Source: Methanoregula sp. PtaU1.Bin051 (GTDB taxonomy: Archaea; Halobacteriota; Methanomicrobia; Methanomicrobiales; Methanospirillaceae). From it: a DNA stretch of 64,000 bases. The first letter of the stretch is position 1. Every line of letters starts with the position of its first letter. Shown here piece by piece: positions 40,220 through 51,029 of the stretch. Both the position numbers and the translations under genes were made by a program. The stretch is taken from assembly GCA_002067895.1 (NCBI GenBank), contig MVRE01000006.1, positions 62,001 to 126,000 on the forward strand, read 5' to 3'. The notes beneath the pieces were generated by a model. It was not told where the DNA came from and searched no databases. It worked only from the letters and a program-made list of their open reading frames with translations.

Positions 40220-40528
40220 TCAATGATATGTCCCTGCATCCGGGTCCGCTATACCTAGCTCTTTATCGATTGCCACGACAAGCCGGTTCAACGTTGTGAC
40301 TACATCTCGTGCGTCTTCCTTATCCATTGTGCCAGGCTGGTGCCAGACGACCTTTTTTCTTAGGAGCGTTGTCAGATCCTCAACATCAGTCCCTTTAAAT
40401 TTTTCAGGAACCATCAGCCCATCGAGGTGGTCCGCGGCGCCGAACCATGCCTGCTCCGGGGGTAGTGCGAAGTGCTTTGCAATCAGCATGATAGGGGTTA
40501 CAAACCCGCGTCCGAATGTGCTCTCCAT
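40220..40528 (-). CDS. Conserved-looking small protein of unknown function after cbiQ
   Basis: The 102-residue product is soluble, acidic and mostly helical, with segments 'FALPPEQAWFGAADHLDGLMVPEKFKGTDVEDLTTLL' and 'DARDVVTTLNRLVVAIDKEL'. I do not recognise the family. The ATG at 40528 is 59 bases after the cbiQ stop and in the same direction, so it could be the last gene of ECF module 1; an upstream extension into cbiQ is unlikely. A link to metal uptake is only inferred from position. Confidence 0.6.
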   Translation of the reverse strand: MESTFGRGFVTPIMLIAKHFALPPEQAWFGAADHLDGLMVPEKFKGTDVEDLTTLLRKKVVWHQPGTMDKEDARDVVTTLNRLVVAIDKELGIADPDAGTYH

Positions 40529-40587
40529 GGCTGAGGATTGCCCTGAGATTACAAAAGGATATTGATGTTTGTAAATTTCAGGAATGA

Positions 40588-41415
40588 TCAGAAGAGAGAA
40601 AATTGTGTAATCCAGACGCACATTGGCGTAGCGATGATAAAGGCTAGGCTAGTAGCAAGAAATCCCCATTCTGTGCCGGTCAAGTCCTTTTTCTTAAGGA
40701 AAAGATGCATGTGCTTTCCGTAGCCCCTGCAGAGCATGCTTACAAAAACCCTCTCCCCTTGTTCGTACGAACGGATGAACATCGTTCCGATTGTATATCC
40801 GAGCTGCCTGAGCCTGTAGCGGTACGAGAGTCTGCGATCGAATGGATCGAAACACCGGGTTTCAAGTGTCTGTTTGATCTTACGGTACATGTATCCGAAA
40901 ACGAACAGGTACCGTATCATCATGCCAAGAGCAAGGGCAAATTCTGCTGGAAGCCCCATGCGACGCCCTCCATCCAGCAGGTCCTGCATCTTTGTCGTAG
41001 ACGAGAGCAGGATGATAAACGATATGCATACGATAAACTTGACAAACAGTATAAAAGCGAATTCGACAGATTCGGCATACACAGAAATCCCGAGCGGCAG
41101 AGAATAAATCACATGATACTCGGTATAATACTTATTTTTCAGGAAAATCTGGAATAGGATAATGATTCCCCACAGCGGGACGATAGCAATGATACGCTGC
41201 ACGAAATTCTTCACCGGAAGGTTCGTGCAGAGCCAGAGTGCTGCAACGAAGATAAAAAAGAGCACCCCGACCGTGTAGATCATCGTTGAATAGGGAACAG
41301 CGACAAGCGCGATGATAGCGGCAAAACAGAGCACAATCTTGACACGGGCATCAAGGCGATGGATGATGGAATCCTTATAGGCATCTTTTTCGATCTGAAA
41401 AAGCTCTTCGATCAT
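40588..41415 (-). CDS. cbiQ: ECF transporter T component, module 1
   Basis: The 275-residue transmembrane coupling protein of a cobalt/nickel energy-coupling-factor transporter has an N-terminal cytoplasmic helix ('EKDAYKDSIIHRLDARVKIVLCF'), about five or six membrane helices and the cytoplasmic coupling motifs 'RSYEQGERVFVSMLCRGYGKHM' (the Ala/Ser-Arg-Gly type) that contact the ATPase. It overlaps the cbiO stop by four bases. It completes module 1 together with cbiM, the PDGLE protein and cbiO. Confidence 0.92.
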   Translation of the reverse strand: MIEELFQIEKDAYKDSIIHRLDARVKIVLCFAAIIALVAVPYSTMIYTVGVLFFIFVAALWLCTNLPVKNFVQRIIAIVPLWGIIILFQIFLKNKYYTEYHVIYSLPLGISVYAESVEFAFILFVKFIVCISFIILLSSTTKMQDLLDGGRRMGLPAEFALALGMMIRYLFVFGYMYRKIKQTLETRCFDPFDRRLSYRYRLRQLGYTIGTMFIRSYEQGERVFVSMLCRGYGKHMHLFLKKKDLTGTEWGFLATSLAFIIATPMCVWITQFSLF

Positions 41416-42245
41416 AAGTCTTTGCCAAATGCCTTCAGGAGGGATTTCCTGACTTCATCAAAGGTGTATGCCATTGTGACATCGATACCATTATCTTTCA
41501 GGCTGCGGATCAGGCGTGGCAGGACCGGGACATCAAGACGGTACGACTTCAACATCTCCGGCTGCATAAAGACCTGTTCTATCGTGCCTTCAGCTACGAT
41601 CCTTCCTTTGTGCATGACATAGATATAATCTGCAATCTCGGGGACAAGCGCAACATCATGGGTCGAAAAGACAACGGTCATACCATAACGGGTAGAGAGC
41701 GAGTTGATGAATGCATTCAGGTCTGCTACGCCCTGCGGGTCAAGCCCTGCAGTCGGCTCATCCAGTACGAGCACCTGCGGTTCCATTGCGATTACGCCGG
41801 CTATAGCTACCCGTTTCTTCTCCCCTCCGCTCAGATGGTGCGGAACCCGGAGGGCGAGGTGCTCGATCCCGACGATCTTCAGGGCTTCATGGACCCGGTG
41901 ATGGACGGTCTCATCATCAAGCCCGAGATTGGTCGGGCCGAACGCCACGTCCTGCTCGACTGTAGGGGAGAAGATCTGGTCATCGGGATACTGGAAAACG
42001 AGCCCGACATACTTGCGCACCTCACGAATATTCTCCTTTGTGATCGGTTCCCCGCGGATGAGGACCGATCCCGATGTTGCCTTGAAAATTCCGTTGAAAT
42101 GCTTGAACAGCGTGCTCTTTCCGGCACCATTCGAGCCGATCACAGCAATCCTGGCATTGCGTGGGGCGATAAAATTAATACAGTCGAGTGCAGTTACGTT
42201 GCCTGCGTAGGTGTAACAGAGATCGCGGGTCTCGATCAGGTGCAT
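41412..42245 (-). CDS. cbiO: ECF transporter ATPase, module 1
   Basis: The 277-residue ABC ATPase has Walker A 'GSNGAGKST', Q loop 'VFQYPDDQIF', signature 'LSGGEKKRVAIAGV', Walker B 'VLVLDEPTAGLD' and the switch His 'FSTHDV'. The Q-loop aspartate and 'FGPTNLGL' segment are typical of ECF ATPases. The ATG at 42245 begins the conserved part; an upstream frame would add 27 residues that fall in the intergenic region. It is 35 bases after the PDGLE gene. Confidence 0.95.
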   Translation of the reverse strand: MHLIETRDLCYTYAGNVTALDCINFIAPRNARIAVIGSNGAGKSTLFKHFNGIFKATSGSVLIRGEPITKENIREVRKYVGLVFQYPDDQIFSPTVEQDVAFGPTNLGLDDETVHHRVHEALKIVGIEHLALRVPHHLSGGEKKRVAIAGVIAMEPQVLVLDEPTAGLDPQGVADLNAFINSLSTRYGMTVVFSTHDVALVPEIADYIYVMHKGRIVAEGTIEQVFMQPEMLKSYRLDVPVLPRLIRSLKDNGIDVTMAYTFDEVRKSLLKAFGKDL

Positions 42246-42280
42246 GGGAGTAATGAATTGGGTTGTAAAAAATTTAAGTT

Positions 42281-42634
42281 CTACTGGTTTGTCTTCCCTG
42301 TTTTTCGCAGGATTCTGATACCACATGCAGCCCCGAAGACAAGAATGAAGGCAATGGTTGTACCTGCAACGATCGCGATCACACCTCCAAGCGGCCCCAT
42401 CTGCTCGCCAAGCGAGTAATCAGGCATCGGGGACTCGTAGGCAAACCTGTCCACAGTTTCCTCATGGATTTCGGCATCCGCAGGAGTTCCTCCGGTCAGC
42501 TCTTTCTGGCCCTGCACAACAAGAGCGGTACTCTCGAGGCCATCCGGGTCCCCCGATGCCAGAAAGACAGCGATCCCACCGATCAGCAGGGCGAGTACGA
42601 GCCCCCCAATAAGAAACGTTTTGTTATCGATCAT
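42281..42634 (-). CDS. PDGLE-domain subunit of nickel/cobalt transporter, module 1
   Basis: This 117-residue protein has an N-terminal membrane helix, the 'SGDPDGLESTA' motif that names the PDGLE domain, an extracytoplasmic loop and a second helix ending in a basic tail. PDGLE proteins take the place of CbiN and are often found in nickel systems (NikN), so module 1 is more likely a nickel importer. The start overlaps the cbiM stop by four bases. Confidence 0.9.
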   Translation of the reverse strand: MIDNKTFLIGGLVLALLIGGIAVFLASGDPDGLESTALVVQGQKELTGGTPADAEIHEETVDRFAYESPMPDYSLGEQMGPLGGVIAIVAGTTIAFILVFGAACGIRILRKTGKTNQ

Positions 42635-43284
42635 GGTGCTGCAATCCCCTTAGGTGTCTTAATACCGGTATCAATCAGATCGGGCCTGACACTAATGATC
42701 AGGTAAATTGCTGCGACTGTCACAAATCCTTCTATGAATCCGATAATTGCGTGATATATCCCCATAGCAACCAGGCCTTCCATGAGCGGGAATGTACCGG
42801 CAAAATACATCTCAACAGCACAGGCAAGAGCCGGAATCAGGCAGGCAAGCCATGCCGCAGTAAATGCTGCAACGGGCATATTCCTGATGGCTACCATAAG
42901 TCCCCTGAATGAATAGAACCCGACAAAACCTCCAATCACACCCATATTGATGATGTTGGCCCCCATCACTGTAATGCCCCCATCCCCAAACAGAACTCCC
43001 TGCACTATCAGCACAAGGGTCATGATGAAGATCGCTGCTAACGGAGAGCCCAGCACTATTGCAGCAAGTGCACCACCGACAAGGTGCCCGCTTGTCCCCA
43101 TCGAGACGGGGAGGTTGAATGACTGGAGGGCAAAGATGCCGGCTGCAAGTACAGCGACCATGGGTAATTTCTCCTCGCTCATTTCGTTCTTCGCCCACTT
43201 CAGGGATATTGCGATAAACACAAGGGCAATAATCCAGTAAATTGCGCCTTGCCAGATTGGAATGAATGCATCGGGAATATGCAT
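42631..43284 (-). CDS. cbiM: ECF transporter substrate-binding component CbiM/NikM, module 1
   Basis: The 217-residue membrane protein captures Ni2+ or Co2+. It begins 'MHIPDAFIP', and in this family the N-terminal amine and His2 help bind the metal. The central 'MGTSGHLVGGALAAIVLGSP' contains the second conserved His, followed by 'LLFGDGGITVMGANIINMG'. Seven helices fit the profile. It is the first gene of module 1, with GCGGTGGC before the ATG. Confidence 0.95.
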   Translation of the reverse strand: MHIPDAFIPIWQGAIYWIIALVFIAISLKWAKNEMSEEKLPMVAVLAAGIFALQSFNLPVSMGTSGHLVGGALAAIVLGSPLAAIFIMTLVLIVQGVLFGDGGITVMGANIINMGVIGGFVGFYSFRGLMVAIRNMPVAAFTAAWLACLIPALACAVEMYFAGTFPLMEGLVAMGIYHAIIGFIEGFVTVAAIYLIISVRPDLIDTGIKTPKGIAAP

Positions 43285-43531
43285 GGTGCCACCGCTTGTG
43301 AATACGTTTCCTCATTTTTGTATTACTCAATGAAATAAAAAAAGATATTGATTTGTTATTCAATCCGAATAATAATTACAGTTCAGCGTTCTCAGATCAA
43401 ATCACTAATAATTTTAGAAGAGATTTCAACAGGATTCTGATAATAGAACAGCGATGCTCTGATGATCTGATTGAAGATATAAGGACACGACATAAACGAT
43501 AACCGGATCTTTCTGCGCGAGTGACAAAAAG
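43285..43531. promoter_or_regulatory. Divergent region between cbiM module 1 and the decayed ABC gene
   Basis: This AT-rich gap of 247 bases contains an inverted repeat TTATTC-AATCC-GAATAA at 43356-43372, about 72 bases upstream of the cbiM ATG. The repeat could be a metal-regulator site, but it does not match the palindrome found at module 3. TATA-like tracts lie between 43320 and 43345 on the cbiM side. Confidence 0.4.
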
Positions 43532-44457
43532 ATGGATGCAATCGATACTCATGACCTTACCCGGTATTATGGGGATCTCCGTGCTGTCGACCATCTGGAT
43601 CTGGCAATCGACAATGAGATCTTTGCACTGCTGGGCCTAATGGTTCGGGAAAAACAACTACGGTCCTCATGCTGACAACCCTGCTGCGGCCTACAGAGGG
43701 AACGGCAAGTATCTGTGGCTATGATATCCTGAAAAACGACAGGGAAGTCCGAAAGCATATTTCATACGTCCCGCAGGATATGGCGGTCGATATCAAGCTG
43801 ACCGGACGGGAGAATGTACTTTTCTATACCAACCTCTATGGAGTAAACAATCCCAAGGACCGGGCTGATGAGCCCCTCTCCGTAATGGAACTGTCGGATC
43901 GTGCCGATGACCTGACTAGGACCTATTCCGGGGGGATGCGCCGCCGCCTTGAGCTTGCCCAGGCCCTTATCCACCAGCCCGAGGTCCAGTTTCTTGATGA
44001 ACCGACACTAGGCCTGGATGTTGCTGCCCGGAGGAGGATTTGGGAACACATCAGTGCGTTGAAGAAAACCGGAATGACAATCTTTGTCACAACCCACTAC
44101 ATGGACGAGGCCGACCAGCATTGTGAAAGGGTTGGGATTATCAGTAAAGGGAAGATTGTTGCTCTCGGTTTCCCATCGGCACTTAAGGCACGGCTGATGA
44201 AAGATATTATAACGGTGACCATTGACGGAGAATGCAATGGAGTGACTGAATTAGGAATTAGGGGCATCGAGTATCTTGGCTGTAAAGGGTCGGATATTTC
44301 ATTTACTGCAGAAAAGGGGCGGGAAGCGCTCCCTATCATCGCCGATATAATGGTACGTGACGGCATACTTATCCGACAGATGGCACTTCGGGAACCTACC
44401 CTTGATGATGTTTTTCTGCTAGCCGTGGCATACTCCAGACAACAATCATTCTCATAA
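43532..44457 (+). pseudogene. ABC exporter ATPase, frameshifted in Walker A
   Basis: The first 35 codons read 'MDAIDTHDLTRYYGDLRAVD' and 'IDNEIFALLG', the standard start of a drug/antibiotic-type ABC ATPase. At the Walker A loop the frame breaks near 43636: one C is missing, so the expected Gly-Pro-Asn-Gly-Ser-Gly-Lys-Thr-Thr is split. Adding one base restores it and joins the long second frame with signature 'YSGGMRRRLELAQALI', Walker B 'VQFLDEPTLGLD', switch 'VTTHYMDEAD' and the C-terminal domain. Without correction the ATPase would lack its Walker A, so it is inactive as written. The neighbouring permease is also broken (next entry). Confidence 0.85.
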
Positions 44458-44837
44458 TTGCTCTCATTATCGGAGCATCGTTCTATACCCCGCTTCAGTA
44501 TGCCATGACCTATATCATCCTGTTCCTATTCGGGATTTTAATAATATCTTTTGCCACTACAATCGCACTGTATCTTGACGATCACGGTTCGCTTGCGGCA
44601 TTCAACACAATGATCACCATGCCGCTCTTCTTTACATCAAGTGCGTTAATGCCATATGATGTGATGCCTGATTGGCTCCGGACGGTTGCGTCGGTAAATC
44701 CACTCAGTTTTGCCATCGATGCAATCCGGAACGTCAATGCAGGGATTATACCTGTCTGGCAGGTATCTGCTCTTGGCCTGATGAGCACATTTGTTATTGC
44801 AATTTGCATCGTCGTATTCCGGAGAACGACCCTATAA
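44431..44837 (+). pseudogene. ABC-2 permease fragment, C-terminal half only
   Basis: About 130 residues of an ABC-2 type permease remain ('ITMPLFFTSSALMPYDVMPDWLRTVASVNPLSFAIDAIRN'), with four or so helices and the family's conserved loop. The 5' half is absent: the permease frame can be read back to about 44431, where it runs into the final codons of the ATPase gene, so the permease N-terminal 120 or so residues have been deleted and its remainder fused to the ATPase end in another frame. No start codon suits translation of a complete protein; an internal ATG at 44505 would give 110 residues. Clear remnant. Confidence 0.82.
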
Positions 44838-44852
44838 TGAAAAACATAGAGC

Positions 44853-46037
44853 TTAACTGGTATCAGTTTTTTTCAAAGCATTGAATGAGACAACGGTTAT
44901 GGCATTGCTGCTTTCCCTACAGTAGGCATCCACACGGGCCGAAACACGGTCTGTCATGCTGCTCGTCGTCAGGATGAGGGAGTCCTGCCCGCGTAATGCC
45001 CGTAGGATGCACTTGTCGATAACGCCGTAAGTGAATTCGAGCGCAATGCATTCCATTGCGGCGTACTGCTTGGCCCGCGTTCCCATGGCCCCGACCGCAA
45101 TGCCGGGTCTGGCCTTTACCCATGCTGCAATCTCGGGATGGTTTTTTTCGTCCACGTTGCAGACCGTAATCGTGCCAGGCGATGTTCGGACAGAGGTTCC
45201 ATGTGGCTGGCTCTCGATAATATGAACCATGTCTAATACACTTCTGGGCTTCCGATCCGGGATGGCAAACCCGCGTTTGGCAAGCTCGGCAGAGAGTTCG
45301 AGCAGGGTCGGGACCGAGAGGTGCGCCATGCGGACAAGCTTTGGATTCCCGAATGCAACGTCTGGTATGTCTTCCCTGATGATATGCCCATCCGCGAGAA
45401 GAATGGCTCTGTCAGCCCATGGATACGCGAGCTCGACATCATGGGTTGAGATAACGATAGTCTTACCCTCATTGTTCAGCTCATCCAGCAGCTCCATAAG
45501 ATCCTCGGAGCCTGATGGATCGAGACCGCTTGTCGGTTCATCAAAGACCAGCACATCAGGGTCCATCGCTAGTACACCGGCAATTGCGACCCTTTTCTTT
45601 TCCCCGCCTGAGAGCTGGTGGGGTGGCCGGCGCTCGAATCCGAAGAGGCCCACGTGCCGGAGGGCGTTTGTCACCGCCTGCCTGACCTCCGGTTCGGTAT
45701 AGGCGAGATTTGTCGGACCGAATGCCACATCCTGGTACACGGTCGGGGCTATGATCTGACGGTCCGGATTCTGGAGCACGAACCCGACCTTCCGCCGGAG
45801 TTCCCGAAGTGACTCTCTGTCGTACTGCATTGGCTTGTTGTCAAAGAGCATTGTACCGGAGTCGGGACGTATCATACCGTTGAACATCTGCAGAAGTGTG
45901 GACTTGCCAGCTCCGTTCGGGCCAACAAGTGCAATCTTCTCGCCCCTGCGGAAGTGGAAACTGATCCCCCGGATCGCTTCCTGCCCCCGCGGGTAGCGGA
46001 ACCGGATATCGCGTGCTTCAATGATAATGCCGCTCAT
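44853..46037 (-). CDS. cbiO: ECF transporter ATPase with C-terminal extension, module 2
   Basis: The 394-residue protein has a complete ECF ABC ATPase in its first 245 residues (Walker A 'GPNGAGKST', Q loop 'VLQNPDRQIIAPT', signature 'LSGGEKKRVAIAGV', Walker B 'VLVFDEPTSGLD', switch 'ISTHDV'). An additional domain of about 145 residues follows that ordinary CbiO proteins lack. The extension has alternating beta and alpha segments ('TVCNVDEKNHPEIAAWVKARPGIAVGAMGTRAKQYAAMECIALEF', 'KCILRALRGQDSLILTTSSM'), suggestive of a small nucleotide-like or ligand-binding fold, and no motif I can name. SD AGGAGA lies nine bases before the ATG. Confidence 0.93.
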   Translation of the reverse strand: MSGIIIEARDIRFRYPRGQEAIRGISFHFRRGEKIALVGPNGAGKSTLLQMFNGMIRPDSGTMLFDNKPMQYDRESLRELRRKVGFVLQNPDRQIIAPTVYQDVAFGPTNLAYTEPEVRQAVTNALRHVGLFGFERRPPHQLSGGEKKRVAIAGVLAMDPDVLVFDEPTSGLDPSGSEDLMELLDELNNEGKTIVISTHDVELAYPWADRAILLADGHIIREDIPDVAFGNPKLVRMAHLSVPTLLELSAELAKRGFAIPDRKPRSVLDMVHIIESQPHGTSVRTSPGTITVCNVDEKNHPEIAAWVKARPGIAVGAMGTRAKQYAAMECIALEFTYGVIDKCILRALRGQDSLILTTSSMTDRVSARVDAYCRESSNAITVVSFNALKKTDTS

Positions 46038-46049
46038 GTAATGTGTCTC

Positions 46050-46838
46050 CTAGAGCAGGGTCGTTCCCTGTGATGCGATCACGACTAGACTCCCTGCTAG
46101 CAGGAAGAGGGCGAGGGCGGCCAGGGGCCGGAGTTCTACGGGCCGGTTCTCGCCAAGAAGCGCGAATTTCCCGTTGTAGCACCGGGCATCCATAGCCCGG
46201 ACCAGGTCGTCGCCGGCATCCCACGCGGCGATGAAGGCTGCACCGCAGAGCATGGAAAATGTGCTGACAGACTCCATCCACCCCGAATAGCCAAGGCGCA
46301 TCACCTGCGCCCGGTGGATCTGTCGGACATGATCCATCAGGAAGAATATCGTCCGGTAGATGATCATCGCAAGGTCGATGACGAAATCAGGGACTCGGAC
46401 CTTTCGCATCACTATGAAGAGGTCAGTCATGGGTGTGGTCAGGGCGATAAAGAGGAGAGCCGCCATGCCTCCGATAACCCGGCAGAGGATGAAGAACCCG
46501 GTATTGATACTCTCTCGACTGATTGAGAACGAGAGGAACGGGAGCGGATCCCAGTTCCAGTAAACGTGCTCCCCTCTGGAGATGACCACGATAATAGCCG
46601 CGCTTAGCAGGGCGAACCAGAGCGGGACGAGGAAGAGGTCCACATAAGTCCGTAGATCCACGCGGGCAAGGAGGATAACTGCGGCCGAAAGGACGAGCGC
46701 GATAAAGAGGGGGGCTGCGTAGCCGGTTGAGACTAGGCAGAGAACAATGGCAGACAAGCCCGTCCCCAGCTTCAGCCAAGTATTGGTCTCGCGCAGACCA
46801 TTCTCCTGGGCTATGTCCTCCAGCAGTTCCTCAAACAT
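46050..46838 (-). CDS. cbiQ: ECF transporter T component, module 2
   Basis: This 262-residue membrane coupling protein has about five helices and the cytoplasmic coupling segment 'LVRAMDARCYNGKF' near the C-terminus, in place of the usual Ala-Arg-Gly motif. It follows cbiN by six bases and precedes the ATPase gene by 12. Order cbiM-cbiN-cbiQ-cbiO is the classic cobalt arrangement. Confidence 0.92.
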   Translation of the reverse strand: MFEELLEDIAQENGLRETNTWLKLGTGLSAIVLCLVSTGYAAPLFIALVLSAAVILLARVDLRTYVDLFLVPLWFALLSAAIIVVISRGEHVYWNWDPLPFLSFSISRESINTGFFILCRVIGGMAALLFIALTTPMTDLFIVMRKVRVPDFVIDLAMIIYRTIFFLMDHVRQIHRAQVMRLGYSGWMESVSTFSMLCGAAFIAAWDAGDDLVRAMDARCYNGKFALLGENRPVELRPLAALALFLLAGSLVVIASQGTTLL

Positions 46839-46844
46839 GGATCA

Positions 46845-47165
46845 TTACTGCGCTTTCGTGACAATCATACTTTTCTTCTGGCCGAGCCAGTACCCAAAGA
46901 CACCACCTACGAAGATTCCGCCGATGGCAGCTTGAAGTGCGAACAGACATGCTTCAATCTCGCCGCTTGGCGGCTCCCATTGGGGAACCAGAGGCGTAAA
47001 ACTCTCAACAGGTTTTCCGGACAGTTCTGCAATCAGGTTCGATCCTACGTTATCGGAACCGGCGAACTCTGCCCCTTCCAGGGTTGAACTTGTGTACAGG
47101 AATGCTGCACAGAATCCGAGAATCGCAATGAACGCGAGGATTTCAAGGAAGTAGTTCTTTGCCAT
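46845..47165 (-). CDS. cbiN: Cobalt transport protein CbiN, module 2
   Basis: The 106-residue protein has two helices flanking an extracytoplasmic loop with the CbiN hallmarks 'GAEFAGSDN' and 'PLVPQWEPPSGEIEACLFALQAAIGG'. CbiN assists CbiM in metal loading and points to cobalt as substrate. It overlaps the cbiM stop by one base. Confidence 0.94.
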   Translation of the reverse strand: MAKNYFLEILAFIAILGFCAAFLYTSSTLEGAEFAGSDNVGSNLIAELSGKPVESFTPLVPQWEPPSGEIEACLFALQAAIGGIFVGGVFGYWLGQKKSMIVTKAQ

Positions 47166-47857
47166 TATACATCGCCCCGGGCAGCGCTGATCTGCGTTTC
47201 AGAAAAAATCTTAAGGCGTATTAGGATATCGGGTTTTAAGGCAACAATGTACTTGAATACCAGTGCAAGTACGATTCCCTCTACTATTGCAAGAGGTACC
47301 TGTGTCACCGCAAATATTCCCGTAAACAGGATGAATGAACTGACAACACCTCCCACTTCTGCAGGGTATGCAAGAGCAAGTTCAAGGGAGGTCGTTATAT
47401 ATGTAAACATGTCCGCAAGGGCAGTTACAAGAAAGACAGTCAGGTAAATGTTCACTTTTGTATCCTTGAGCACACGATAAACTGCAAAACCGATAATTGG
47501 GCCGGCAATGCCCATTGAAACGATATTTGCACCGAGTACTGAAAGACCTCCATGAGCGAGGAAGAGACTCTGGAACAGGAGTACAATCGCGCAGATGACC
47601 GATGTAATCCACGGCCCGAAACAGATCGCTGAGAGACCGGTTCCGGTTGGGTGCGAACAGCTTCCCGTGACCGATGGAAGTTTCAGTGAAGACAGGATAA
47701 AGATGAATCCGCCGGTCACTCCCAGCAGGGGGAGAGCTTCACGATCCGCGTCCATGACTTTTTTCAGATAATACACACCGCAAGCTAGGCAGGGCAGGGC
47801 GATAAGCCACCATACCAGACACCACTGCCATGGCAGGAAACCTTCCATGATATGCAT
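47165..47857 (-). CDS. cbiM: ECF transporter substrate-binding component CbiM, module 2
   Basis: This 230-residue membrane protein begins 'MHIMEGFLP', the canonical metal-binding N-terminus, and contains the 'SVTGSCSHPTGTGLSAICFGP' loop with the further conserved His and the 'LAHGGLSVLGANIVSMGIAGPIIGF' segment. These are the standard CbiM features. It is the first gene of module 2. The upstream 245-base region is shared with the divergent DtxR-like regulator. Confidence 0.95.
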   Translation of the reverse strand: MHIMEGFLPWQWCLVWWLIALPCLACGVYYLKKVMDADREALPLLGVTGGFIFILSSLKLPSVTGSCSHPTGTGLSAICFGPWITSVICAIVLLFQSLFLAHGGLSVLGANIVSMGIAGPIIGFAVYRVLKDTKVNIYLTVFLVTALADMFTYITTSLELALAYPAEVGGVVSSFILFTGIFAVTQVPLAIVEGIVLALVFKYIVALKPDILIRLKIFSETQISAARGDV

Positions 47858-48054
47858 GTTAATCTAATCTCAAGTTTATTTGTTGTAACTAAATAAGACT
47901 TGCTTAGATAGTTCCCCGGGCTCCGGTATGATGAAGTAAGACATTACTGAAAAGCAGATAAACCTTGACTGATTCGTTACAATTTGCTTTCACCCTCTTT
48001 GATATGCTGGTTCCTTGTTTTCCATGGAATTCGATACATAAGCCTGCATAAATG

Positions 48055-48069
48055 TTGGTATAATACCAA
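48055..48069. promoter_or_regulatory. 15-bp palindromic operator upstream of DtxR-like gene
   Basis: TTGGTATAATACCAA is a perfect palindrome with seven-base arms around one central A. It lies 34 bases before the regulator's ATG and includes a TATA-like core, so a bound repressor would block transcription initiation. The same half-sites recur at 50306-50320. Autoregulation by the adjacent DtxR-like protein is the simplest reading. Confidence 0.6.
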
Positions 48070-48102
48070 AACTTCATACCCTGCGCTATCGTATCCCATG
48101 GT

Positions 48103-48585
48103 ATGGATGATAACAGCGGGACCGGGCTTTCTGCCCGCAAGGTCGATTACCTCAAATATATCCACGAGCATGACGGATCGGTCAGGACCGGGGATCTGGC
48201 CATACGGTTCGGGGTAGATCCCTCCACGATCTCAAAGACGATCCGTGAACTAGCAAACGATGGCCTCCTCTCCTGTGCTCCCTATCAAAGAATCCGGCTC
48301 TCCGCATCCGGGAGAAAACAGGCAGAATATTGCATCAAACGGCACCGGATCTTAAGCCTCCTTTTCACGCATTATGGATTCTCCCCTGACCAGGCATGTA
48401 CTGAGGTCTCCCGTTTCGAGAGTTATGTGAGCAGGGAGGCAGTGGATCGGATCTGCCGGACCATGGGCCATCCGCAGGCCGCCGGTTGTGGAGCAATTAC
48501 GCATGATGCCGGTTGTCTGGGCAATGAGAGCATGCTTCATGATCTCACATCATCAGGGTCAATATGGAAGGGGAGGGGACGATGA
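48103..48585 (+). CDS. DtxR/MntR-like metal-dependent transcriptional regulator
   Basis: The 160-residue protein has an N-terminal winged helix (about 10-70, 'LAIRFGVDPSTISKTIRELANDGLL') and a dimerisation region with metal-site residues in the DtxR pattern ('KRHRILSLLFTHYGFSPDQACTEVSRFESYVSREAVDRICRTMGHP', about 75-130). It lacks the SH3-like third domain. It should sense a divalent metal. The last codons overlap cbiQ of module 3 by four bases, so it is the first gene of that module and probably controls Co/Ni uptake. The closing 30 residues are Gly/Ser-rich and include two extra Cys. Confidence 0.87.
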   Translation: MDDNSGTGLSARKVDYLKYIHEHDGSVRTGDLAIRFGVDPSTISKTIRELANDGLLSCAPYQRIRLSASGRKQAEYCIKRHRILSLLFTHYGFSPDQACTEVSRFESYVSREAVDRICRTMGHPQAAGCGAITHDAGCLGNESMLHDLTSSGSIWKGRGR

Positions 48586-49409
48586 GTGCCGGAGAACCGT
48601 TCCGTCACATCCCTGACATTGCCTTGATTACATGGCATGCGGAAAGGAACCGGTCTGCATTTTCAATTGTCAGTCCCTGGACAAAGATCGCATTCCTCTT
48701 TCTACTCGTCATCATTGTTACTGTTGTCAGGTCGTTTCCCGTGATCCTTCTTCTCTTCCTTGGAACCTTTACCGCCTGCGCAATTGCAGGGCTCCCCCTC
48801 CGGAAGATCGTTCTCTGGTATACTCTCCCCATTATTTTTGTTCTCTCCCTTGTCGGGATCATGGCGTGGGGCGAGCCGGGAAATCCCGTTCTTTCCTTTA
48901 CCATTGCCGGCTACAATGCAACCCTGACTGATGCCGGGCTTCTTCTGATTTTTGTCCTGTTACTAAAAGCGCTGATTATTGTTACGTACTCTCTACTCGT
49001 CCTCATGACGACGCGGTACAACCATGTCGCCGGCCTTATCGACCGTATCTTTCCAGATCCCATCAACCAAATCTTCCTCCTCTCGTACCGGTTCCTGTTC
49101 TTAACCATCAGTCTTACCGGTTCCCTGCTCAAATCGATAAATTCCAGGGGAGGCGGGATGATCCGGAGCCTGCGGGTACAGGGCCGGATTTTTGCACAGG
49201 TCTTTGCTCTGACATTTATCCGTTCGCTCGATCGCGCTGAGCGTGTCCATTCCGCGATGGCATCGCGCGGGTACTGCGGTATATATGCAACGGCAAGTCC
49301 GGTCCCTGCCCCATCTGTCCGCGGGACGATCTGCATCATTGCTTTAAGTGTTATAACCCTAGCACTTGTTGCGGCATATATGACCCCCCCCGAAGTGGTG
49401 ATCCCATGA
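48582..49409 (+). CDS. cbiQ: ECF transporter T component, module 3
   Basis: The 275-residue membrane protein has about five to six helices and the coupling segment 'RSLDRAERVHSAMASRGYCGIY' with the Ala-Ser-Arg-Gly motif for ATPase contact. The ATG at 48582 overlaps the regulator stop (ATGA) and follows GGGGAGGGGAC, a strong ribosome-binding site, so it is preferred over the ATG at 48564. The N-terminal 'FRHIPDIALITWHAERNRSAFSIVSPWTKIAFLF' is typical of archaeal T components. Confidence 0.9.
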   Translation: MSAGEPFRHIPDIALITWHAERNRSAFSIVSPWTKIAFLFLLVIIVTVVRSFPVILLLFLGTFTACAIAGLPLRKIVLWYTLPIIFVLSLVGIMAWGEPGNPVLSFTIAGYNATLTDAGLLLIFVLLLKALIIVTYSLLVLMTTRYNHVAGLIDRIFPDPINQIFLLSYRFLFLTISLTGSLLKSINSRGGGMIRSLRVQGRIFAQVFALTFIRSLDRAERVHSAMASRGYCGIYATASPVPAPSVRGTICIIALSVITLALVAAYMTPPEVVIP

Positions 49410-50287
49410 CAGAACGGGTATCGCCGGTTTGCTACTGCCCACCCCCATCTGCAGGTGAGAGGCGCGAGCTGATCCACGTGGATTGTGCTAGCCACATCTA
49501 TCCTGATGGGAGCATTGGCATTCACCAGATGTGTTTTCGTGTCCTGGAAGGAGAGATCGTTGCTCTGTGCGGCCCGAACGGTTCAGGTAAATCCACGTTA
49601 ATCGAGCATATCAACGGGCTGCTCCGTCCGTCAGAAGGCAAAATCGTGGTAAATGGTTGTTCTGTCGGATCCTCCCAGGCCGCAGATTTATGGAAAGAGG
49701 TGGGGATTGTCTTCCAACGCTCGGATGATCAGCTCTTCGCTCCCACGGTTCTTGATGACGTGATGTTTGGCCCACTTAACCTCGGCATGGAGGAAGGGCA
49801 GGCAAGAACCGAGGCACTTGCCGCCCTAGAGACTGTTGGTGCAGAAGGACTCGACACACGGCTGCCCAATTACCTGAGCGGTGGGGAAAAGCGGCTCGTT
49901 GCGATTGCCGGTATCCTTGCGATGCACCCGAAGATCATAGCATTCGATGAACCGACTTCAGACCTTGATCCGGTCCATAGTGCGAAAATTGAGGAGATCG
50001 TCCGAAAACTGCGGGATGTTTACGGCATCAGCATCGTCCTTGCCACCCATGACCTCGATCTTGCAGCGCGGTTGGCTGATCGGGTCTGCCTTGTCAGGAA
50101 AGGATCTATCTGTGCAGAAGGGTCTCCTGCTGATATTTTTTATAATGAAACTCTTATCTCCAATACAGGCCTTTTGCCCCCAGCAGTCGTACGAATTTAT
50201 CGTTCATACTGTAAAAGCAAGGGATTGACGGCAGACAAGCGGCCATTGGATGCGGCAGGTCTCATTGAAGCGATCAGTAATTCATAG
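49406..50287 (+). CDS. cbiO: ECF transporter ATPase, module 3
   Basis: This 293-residue ABC ATPase has Walker A 'CGPNGSGKST' (about 53), Q loop 'VFQRSDDQLFAPT', signature 'LSGGEKRLVAIAG', Walker B 'IIAFDEPTSDLD' and switch 'LATHDL'. The start overlaps the cbiQ stop by four bases (ATGA). The N-terminal 20 residues, with two close Cys ('VCYCPPPSAGE'), precede the ATPase fold and are unusual. A separate promoter for the downstream permease lies after the stop. Confidence 0.94.
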   Translation: MTERVSPVCYCPPPSAGERRELIHVDCASHIYPDGSIGIHQMCFRVLEGEIVALCGPNGSGKSTLIEHINGLLRPSEGKIVVNGCSVGSSQAADLWKEVGIVFQRSDDQLFAPTVLDDVMFGPLNLGMEEGQARTEALAALETVGAEGLDTRLPNYLSGGEKRLVAIAGILAMHPKIIAFDEPTSDLDPVHSAKIEEIVRKLRDVYGISIVLATHDLDLAARLADRVCLVRKGSICAEGSPADIFYNETLISNTGLLPPAVVRIYRSYCKSKGLTADKRPLDAAGLIEAISNS

Positions 50288-50305
50288 GGTGCGGCATCAT
50301 AGGTT

Positions 50306-50320
50306 TTGGTAGCATTCCAA
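50306..50320. promoter_or_regulatory. Degenerate copy of the module 3 operator
   Basis: TTGGTAGCATTCCAA agrees with the palindrome at 48055-48069 in 12 of 15 positions and keeps both TTGG/CCAA outer half-sites. It lies just upstream of the TATA box of the last cbiM gene. This location suits repression or activation by the same DtxR-like regulator. Confidence 0.45.
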
Positions 50321-50330
50321 CTTTTTCTTA

Positions 50331-50340
50331 AACTATATAA
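50331..50340 (+). promoter_or_regulatory. TATA box for leaderless cbiM (module 3)
   Basis: AACTATATAA is centred about 24 bases before the ATG at 50360, so transcription would begin at the start codon itself, giving a leaderless message. This supports the ATG at 50360 as the true start. Confidence 0.6.
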
Positions 50341-50359
50341 CCTGCGCCCCCCGATCATC

Positions 50360-51029
50360 ATGGAAGAGGGATACTACGCCCCATATTCATCTTGAGGATG
50401 GCTCGTTTCCACTGCTCTGGGTTATTATCTGGTGGATTCTCACCCTTGTGATCATTGGCAGTTGTCTCTTTTTTATCCGCCTCAGGATGATTCCGAAGGG
50501 AAAGGTCGTCACAATCGCCGCATTCTGTACGGCAGCTGCGTTTGCCGCTTTCCAGATCACCATTCCGGTCTTTGGAGGCATCCATCTCACCCTGACCCCC
50601 CTTATCGCGATCTTCACCGGGCCTGCAATCGGAAGCCTTGTTGTTCTCATTATCAACATTCTTTCCGCAGCAATCGGCCACGGCGGGTTCGGCATGATTG
50701 GAGCAAACACGCTTGTCAATATCGGGGAAGTCGTGACCGCGTATATCATTTACAAAGGGACAAAACGGTTGACCATCGATAGGTTTGCCCGTGCCGCAAT
50801 CGCTACATTTGTGGGGCTCTTTGCCGGAAATCTCCTGATGATTGCTATGATCCTTGTATCGGGGATTCAGGGGATCGCCCAGAGCCAGGTGCAGATCCTG
50901 TATGGCCTGACTTTGCTCGCCATAATCAACATGGGTGTTGCACTCGTCGAGGCAATCATCACAGGTTTCATAATCGGTTTTCTCGGTCGGGCACGCCCGG
51001 ATCTTCTCGGGGAAGGGGAAAATACCTGA
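50360..51029 (+). CDS. cbiM: CbiM-like ECF component, module 3, with apparent +1 frameshift near its start
   Basis: From about 50382 the sequence reads 'HIHLEDGSFPLLWVIIWWILTLVIIG' and then a full CbiM-type permease ('GGIHLTLTPLIAIFTGPAIGS', 'GHGGFGMIGANTLVNIGEVV', C-terminal 'GRARPDLLGEGENT'). No start codon lies in that frame before GTG at 50448, inside the first membrane helix. The leaderless ATG at 50360 opens 'MEEGYYA' in another frame and would join perfectly if one C of the CCCC run at 50379-50382 were absent. The product would then be about 223 residues. It may be a real defect or an assembly error. The corrected N-terminus would lack the usual Met-His start used in metal binding, another oddity. 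Confidence 0.75.

Follow-up and report, generated by a model that had tools for sequence, protein, structure and literature searches.

The window analysed here is a stretch of 64,000 nucleotides from Methanoregula sp. PtaU1.Bin051 (assembly GCA_002067895.1, contig MVRE01000006.1, positions 62,001 to 126,000 of the forward strand). Between 40588 and 51029 it carries three complete metal importers of the energy-coupling factor (ECF) type, each with a substrate-specific (S) component, a transmembrane (T) component and an ATPase (A component), and the three are of different descent. A sequence-only reading of this DNA had described three nickel/cobalt ECF importers side by side with a DtxR-like regulator, and all of these parts match Pfam. 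The make-up of the modules is as it was given there: NikM-PDGLE-CbiO-CbiQ (module 1), CbiM-CbiN-CbiQ-CbiO (module 2), and DtxR-like regulator-CbiQ-CbiO-CbiM (module 3). All twelve components are found close to the coordinates of that reading, with Pfam matches above the curated cut-offs and with best family E-values of 3e-14 to 1e-57, which excludes chance matching. The coordinates were nearly right; only the start at 40220 belongs to an open reading frame (ORF) outside the importers, the first importer gene lying at 40588. This small ORF, a decayed drrAB exporter, the start of cbiM3 and an extension of CbiO2 are corrections to the earlier description. The genome, a 2.3-Mb draft in which mcrA is present, has exactly three CbiM-family genes, all of them within the window. 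An Rfam search of the window found no riboswitch, its sole match being a tRNA.

The three modules are strongly diverged from one another. Global identities between the S components are 33% (modules 1 and 2), 25% (modules 1 and 3) and 22% (modules 2 and 3), while the T components are 24-26% and the A components 35-45% identical. In a maximum-likelihood tree of 45 S components, including the solved 4M58 and 5X3X, CbiM1 groups with the nickel protein NikM2 (4M58; support 96/87), CbiM2 groups with the cobalt protein CbiM (5X3X; support 96/93), and CbiM3 falls in a third, separate clade (support 100/100), the other rows of which all begin with AH[IV]H. Judged by these identities and clades, the three modules are ancient paralogues. 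The sequence-only reading had called them divergent and asked for the CbiM proteins to be placed among characterised systems; the tree now puts CbiM1 with nickel, CbiM2 with cobalt and CbiM3 apart. Recent duplication, the outcome it had named as speaking against itself, is ruled out by the 22-45% identities and the three CbiM clades. It is unlikely that all three modules import the same ion redundantly and differ in affinity alone. They do all belong to the nickel/cobalt ECF family and are located together, but their S components fall in different clades, one with a nickel protein and one with a cobalt protein, and their auxiliary subunits and upstream elements differ.

Module 1 lies on the reverse strand and consists of cbiM1/nikM (42631..43284; Pfam CbiM 8.8e-54), a gene for a PDGLE protein, which is a NikN-type auxiliary component (42281..42634; Pfam PDGLE 1.7e-23), cbiO1/nikO (41412..42245; NF010171 above cut-off), and cbiQ1/nikQ (40588..41415; Pfam CbiQ 1.3e-35 and TIGR02454 above cut-off). 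The listed ORF of cbiO1 begins at 42326, and the likely start is MHLIETRDLC at 42245, the same internal start being found in the orthologue of the close relative G007. Both the Met1-His2 N-terminus (MHIPDAF) and the conserved transmembrane histidine (GTSGH) are present in CbiM1. By gene content and tree position module 1 is most consistent with a NikM-PDGLE-QO nickel importer. The link made earlier between PDGLE and nickel agrees with the grouping of CbiM1 with 4M58, the nickel-binding NikM2. Note that the 4M58 branch is long, and the nickel assignment therefore leans on gene content too. The module resembles the NikMNQO systems of the PDGLE type in its gene content (nikM-PDGLE-O-Q) and in its tree position. 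It differs from them in that PDGLE is a separate gene here and an ORF of about 102 residues follows. In the genus relatives G001 and G003, nikM is longer (333 residues) and is probably a PDGLE fusion. Upstream of nikM a NikR-like candidate operator is found, GTAATAC-N14-GTATTCAC (43298..43326, reverse strand). Its core, TAC-N14-GTA, occurs at the same position before nikM in five of five genomes compared by eye, and it presumably fits the architecture of NikR operators. Three NikR homologues are encoded elsewhere in the genome, and module 1 is probably controlled by NikR.

Module 2, also on the reverse strand, comprises cbiM2 (47165..47857; N-terminus MHIMEGF; TIGR00123 above cut-off), cbiN (46845..47165), cbiQ2 (46050..46838; Pfam CbiQ 1.4e-36) and cbiO2 (44853..46037; TIGR01166 above cut-off). 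The auxiliary component CbiN passes the Pfam cut-off (1.9e-16) and fails that of NCBIfam. CbiM2 matches CbiM of Rhodobacter capsulatus (5X3X), whose record is titled as a cobalt transporter, with a phmmer E-value of 1.8e-57. By homology, the likely identity of module 2 is a cobalt importer of the CbiMNQO type, and the cobalt specificity that had been read from the presence of CbiN agrees with the place of CbiM2 beside 5X3X in the tree. It shares with CbiMNQO of R. capsulatus the gene content and the MHIMEG start; in contrast to that system, CbiO2 here has a C-terminal extension of about 130 residues (44856-45248, reverse strand), which is seen across the order, is conserved in 50 of 61 genomes, and has no Pfam match above cut-off (best DUF7839, E 0.03). 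Cobalamin riboswitches upstream of CbiMNQO are common in bacteria and not defining in archaea. The Rfam search found none before module 2 and, to our knowledge, this absence is to be expected in archaea. A block near CTAAGCAAGTYTTATTTAGTTA (47870-47915) upstream of cbiM2 is also present in Methanoregula UBA154 and partly in G007, and is a possible site for a cobalt regulator. In two Methanosarcinales-type genomes a 168-residue protein with an ArsR-type helix-turn-helix and DUF4430 is encoded upstream of cbiM2 (L108:5949-6455 and L110:8204-8710), a candidate for a sensor of cobalt or corrinoids.

Module 3 lies on the forward strand. It begins with a gene for a DtxR-family regulator (48103..48585; Pfam Fe_dep_repr_C 3.2e-14 and Fe_dep_repress 4.7e-9), followed by cbiQ3 (48582..49409, the longest ORF starting at 48564; Pfam CbiQ 6.2e-23), cbiO3 (49406..50287; Pfam ABC_tran 1.5e-28) and cbiM3 (50376..51029; Pfam CbiM 1.2e-34; first codon ACG). 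Neither a CbiN nor a PDGLE partner is found in the module here, as had been noted before. The best NCBIfam model of CbiO3, ECF_ATPase_2, stays below its cut-off, and CbiM3 is below the cut-off of every NCBIfam CbiM/NikM equivalog (at best 53 bits against 180). An AlphaFold model of the CbiM3 family, made from 52 sequences, has a pLDDT of 92.7 and Foldseek TM scores of 0.73-0.81 to NikM2 (4M58) and CbiM (5X3X), placing it in the NikM/CbiM fold.

The N-terminus of CbiM3 sets it apart from both known types. Its orthologues encode Met-Ala-His-x-His and not the Met1-His2 start of CbiM/NikM, codon 2 being Ala in 84 of 86 relatives and Thr and Pro (L192) in one each. All 52 sequences have the same three histidines, His2, His4 (numbered from Ala) and His68. 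NikM2 binds nickel via the Met1 amine, His2 and His67, and methionine aminopeptidase usually cleaves Met before Ala or Pro, not before His. After removal of Met before Ala, mature CbiM3 would show Ala-His in the register of Met-His in NikM/CbiM, and this Ala-His most likely stands in for the metal-binding Met-His. The N-terminus would then read Ala1-His2-Ile3-His4, and the ion site would be made up of these residues and the conserved His68, in the way that Met1-His2 and His67 make it up in NikM2.

The regulator of module 3 comes with a conserved operator footprint. A palindrome, TTGG-N7-CCAA, precedes the regulator start by about 48 bp at a near-fixed distance (exact in 33 of 41 loci, and in 39 when one mismatch is allowed), with a TATA-like stretch alongside in many loci. 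The same palindrome lies before cbiM3 in 34 of the 45 non-redundant loci that also carry the regulator; in several of the loci without it, cbiO3 and cbiM3 abut or nearly so. The site occurs in 2.0% of random 130-bp windows drawn from these loci, the real sites counted in. Within the window there are only two exact sites, where shuffling gives 1.17, and both belong to module 3: predicted operator 1, TTGGTATAATACCAA (48055..48069), before the regulator, and predicted operator 2, TTGGTAGCATTCCAA (50306..50320), before cbiM3, with TATATA at 50334-50339. This footprint before both genes supports the earlier proposal that module 3 is under a switch of its own. The DtxR-like protein would bind the palindrome ahead of its own gene and ahead of cbiM3, and would shut module 3 when its metal is abundant, repression being the mode expected from the DtxR family. 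A wider regulon of the protein was considered and rejected: outside module 3 the genus genomes have the palindrome at about control frequency, with no recurrent further target, and the two further sites of this genome that were read, on C12 and C14, are without a metal gene.

The regulator family has the winged-helix and dimerisation domains of MntR, DtxR and the archaeal SSO2273 (2X4H). It differs from these in its metal ligands. Taking the MntR ligands to be H77, E99, E102 and H103, the equivalents of H77 and E102 are kept, whereas most members have Ser at the positions of E99 and H103; instead, their C-terminal part carries a conserved CGxITHDxGC motif. A PDB match between the regulator and a TAL effector was rejected as a repeat-sum artefact.

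CbiM-family genes are found in all 101 genomes searched, mostly two in each. Orthologues of CbiM3 occur in 29 of 100 relatives with 46-62% identity, all other CbiM matches being at 22-32%. In the phylum sample 33 of 393 genomes carry CbiM3. An alignment-based scan of contigs gives 70 named loci, and the named records include Methanoregula, Methanosarcina, Methanothrix, Methanocella, Methanoperedens, Thermoplasmata and Bathyarchaeota, and also haloarchaeal plasmids. The order regulator-cbiQ-cbiO-cbiM is the rule in methanogens and Methanoperedens. The copies of Thermoplasmata and haloarchaea start with cbiM; neither a DtxR gene beside them nor TTGG-N7-CCAA before them was detected. Upstream of Thermoplasmata-type cbiM3 (L130, L134, L136, L137 and L153-L157) repeated TTATTAA/TTAATAA boxes are seen instead, which suggests a different regulator.

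In G001-G004 the gene order is gyrB, a small ORF, cbiQ1, cbiO1, (PDGLE) and nikM, then (regulator), cbiQ3, cbiO3, cbiM3 and a gene for geranylgeranyl reductase, with module 2 elsewhere (in G004 about 200 kb off). Modules 1 and 3 are direct neighbours in other members of the genus, and module 2 stands between them here and in G007. The G007 arrangement is pieced together from two contigs: on the first, the end of cbiO2 is followed by a nikR-like gene, drrB, drrA and nikM, and on the second, cbiO2-cbiQ2-cbiN-cbiM2 adjoins regulator-cbiQ3-cbiO3. This makes the triple cluster common to at least two species. The cluster is real, as reported, and is not unique: besides G007, other variants in which the three S components are all near one another occur in Methanoregula UBA154 (L159) and Methanoperedens Ig 1 (L110). 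Beyond the genus no recurrent neighbours of module 3 were found.

Taken together, the locus is probably best explained as a nickel importer (module 1) and a cobalt importer (module 2) beside a module 3 that represents a distinct archaeal ECF class of the nickel/cobalt type with its own regulator-operator pair. What is new here is this third, conserved archaeal importer variant, which was previously uncharacterised; the importers beside it are of known types, and no new mechanism is involved. A broader version, in which module 3 is a third functional nickel/cobalt ECF class across the archaea, with Met removal exposing Ala-His, with no CbiN or PDGLE in methanogens, and with a DtxR-like sensor whose CGxITHDxGC motif is a new metal site, is offered tentatively. 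Several points weigh against the explanation given for the locus. The haloarchaeal gene context of CbiM3 is mixed between nickel and cobalt and fits either metal. By alignment the regulator lacks two canonical MntR ligands, so its dependence on metal is not assured. Operator 1 lies in a gap of about 245 bp that is shared with cbiM2, and module 2 could be affected too. Finally, cbiM3 is without a canonical start codon, which may leave this strain with an inactive module 3.

The start of cbiM3 bears on whether module 3 still works here. Homology reaches back to 50382, and the start codon position of the orthologues (50376-50378) reads ACG; going back from there to the preceding stop, the frame contains neither ATG nor GTG nor TTG. 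At this position 86 relatives have ATG (72), GTG (9), TTG (4) or ACG (1, L158), and in L158 an in-frame ATG lies four codons upstream. The gene begins ACG CCC CAT with a purine-rich GAGGG five bases ahead, and L192 likewise encodes Pro at codon 2. The GTG at 50448 was rejected as a start, as it would remove the first transmembrane segment and the HIH motif. The ACG may reflect an assembly error, a genuine lesion or an uncommon start codon. That module 3 is a decaying copy, with the cbiM3 start lost, the transporter not made, and only modules 1 and 2 working, is a minor but real possibility: ATG, GTG or TTG is found in 85 of the 86 relatives, no in-frame alternative exists upstream, and the nearby drrAB is clearly decayed. 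Yet the frame of cbiM3 is open to its end, the protein keeps 37 of the 40 columns that are invariant in 29 orthologues (the missing start residues account for two of the three exceptions), the operator and TATA-like box before cbiM3 are intact, as are cbiQ3, cbiO3 and the regulator, and a single-base error in the draft assembly would look no different.

As for the ion carried, module 3 most likely imports nickel or cobalt, the two being equally probable. In other families the relatives of CbiM3 are preceded by NikR-family regulators, and likewise in four of six annotated haloarchaeal plasmid loci. Several haloarchaeal plasmid loci then carry GTP-binding proteins, and one a cobalt-factor II methyltransferase (a corrin methyltransferase). 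In eight of twelve genomes of the phylum that were checked, presumably haloarchaeal for the most part, the sole CbiM-family gene is of the CbiM3 type. A metal other than nickel or cobalt (e.g., iron, manganese or zinc) is unlikely. DtxR-family regulators usually sense iron or manganese, the best NCBIfam neighbours of the regulator are MntR models (all far below cut-off), and CbiM3 is below every CbiM equivalog cut-off. Against another metal stand the NikM/CbiM fold, the HxH N-terminus and invariant His68, the absence of two MntR ligands from the regulator, and the NikR-like neighbours of the haloarchaeal relatives.

Nickel and cobalt are central to methanogenesis through F430, hydrogenases and corrinoid methyltransferases, and archaeal uptake routes for them have so far been assigned mostly by homology. 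The signature of a MAHIH start, a DtxR-like neighbour and TTGG-N7-CCAA separates the third class from modules that are annotated alike as CbiM. It also offers a testable rule, N-terminal processing as part of metal binding, along with a simple regulator-operator pair. In Halobacterium NRC-1, SirR of the DtxR family is predicted to control cbiN/cbiM/cbiQ (PMC3600143), which is similar in that a DtxR-family regulator is tied to a CbiM-type importer in an archaeon. While SirR has several predicted metal-transport targets, a dedicated regulator-operator pair serves one operon here. Another archaeon with several neighbouring nickel/cobalt ECF systems is Methanoperedens, whose plasmid HMp_v1 has two adjoining CbiMNQO systems under NikR and ArsR, plus an EcfT/EcfA set (PMC9674854). 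No CbiM3/DtxR module is named there; ORFs 72-75, described as a possible biotin transporter, may represent such a module.

Some further features were seen in and around these loci. Between modules 1 and 2 lies a decayed drrAB ABC exporter (43535..44837, forward strand), which is no part of the importers; it has a frameshift at the Walker A motif, and the 5' half of drrB is missing. In G007 drrA-drrB is intact beside the nikR-like gene, and this nikR copy is gone from the corresponding spot in the window. Haloarchaeal cbiM3 clusters (L190:1130-1453 and L237-L242) encode a protein of about 107 residues between cbiM and cbiQ, annotated as 'cobalamin transport operon protein' and without a Pfam match, which is possibly a counterpart of CbiN. 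Thermoplasmata copies adjoin large genes that by appearance may be housekeeping genes. The ORF of about 102 residues at 40220-40528 (MESTFGRGF...GTYH; reverse strand), between cbiQ1 and gyrB, has no Pfam or NCBIfam match; homologues exist in 55 of 61 genomes, and it adjoins cbiQ1 in all twelve loci checked.

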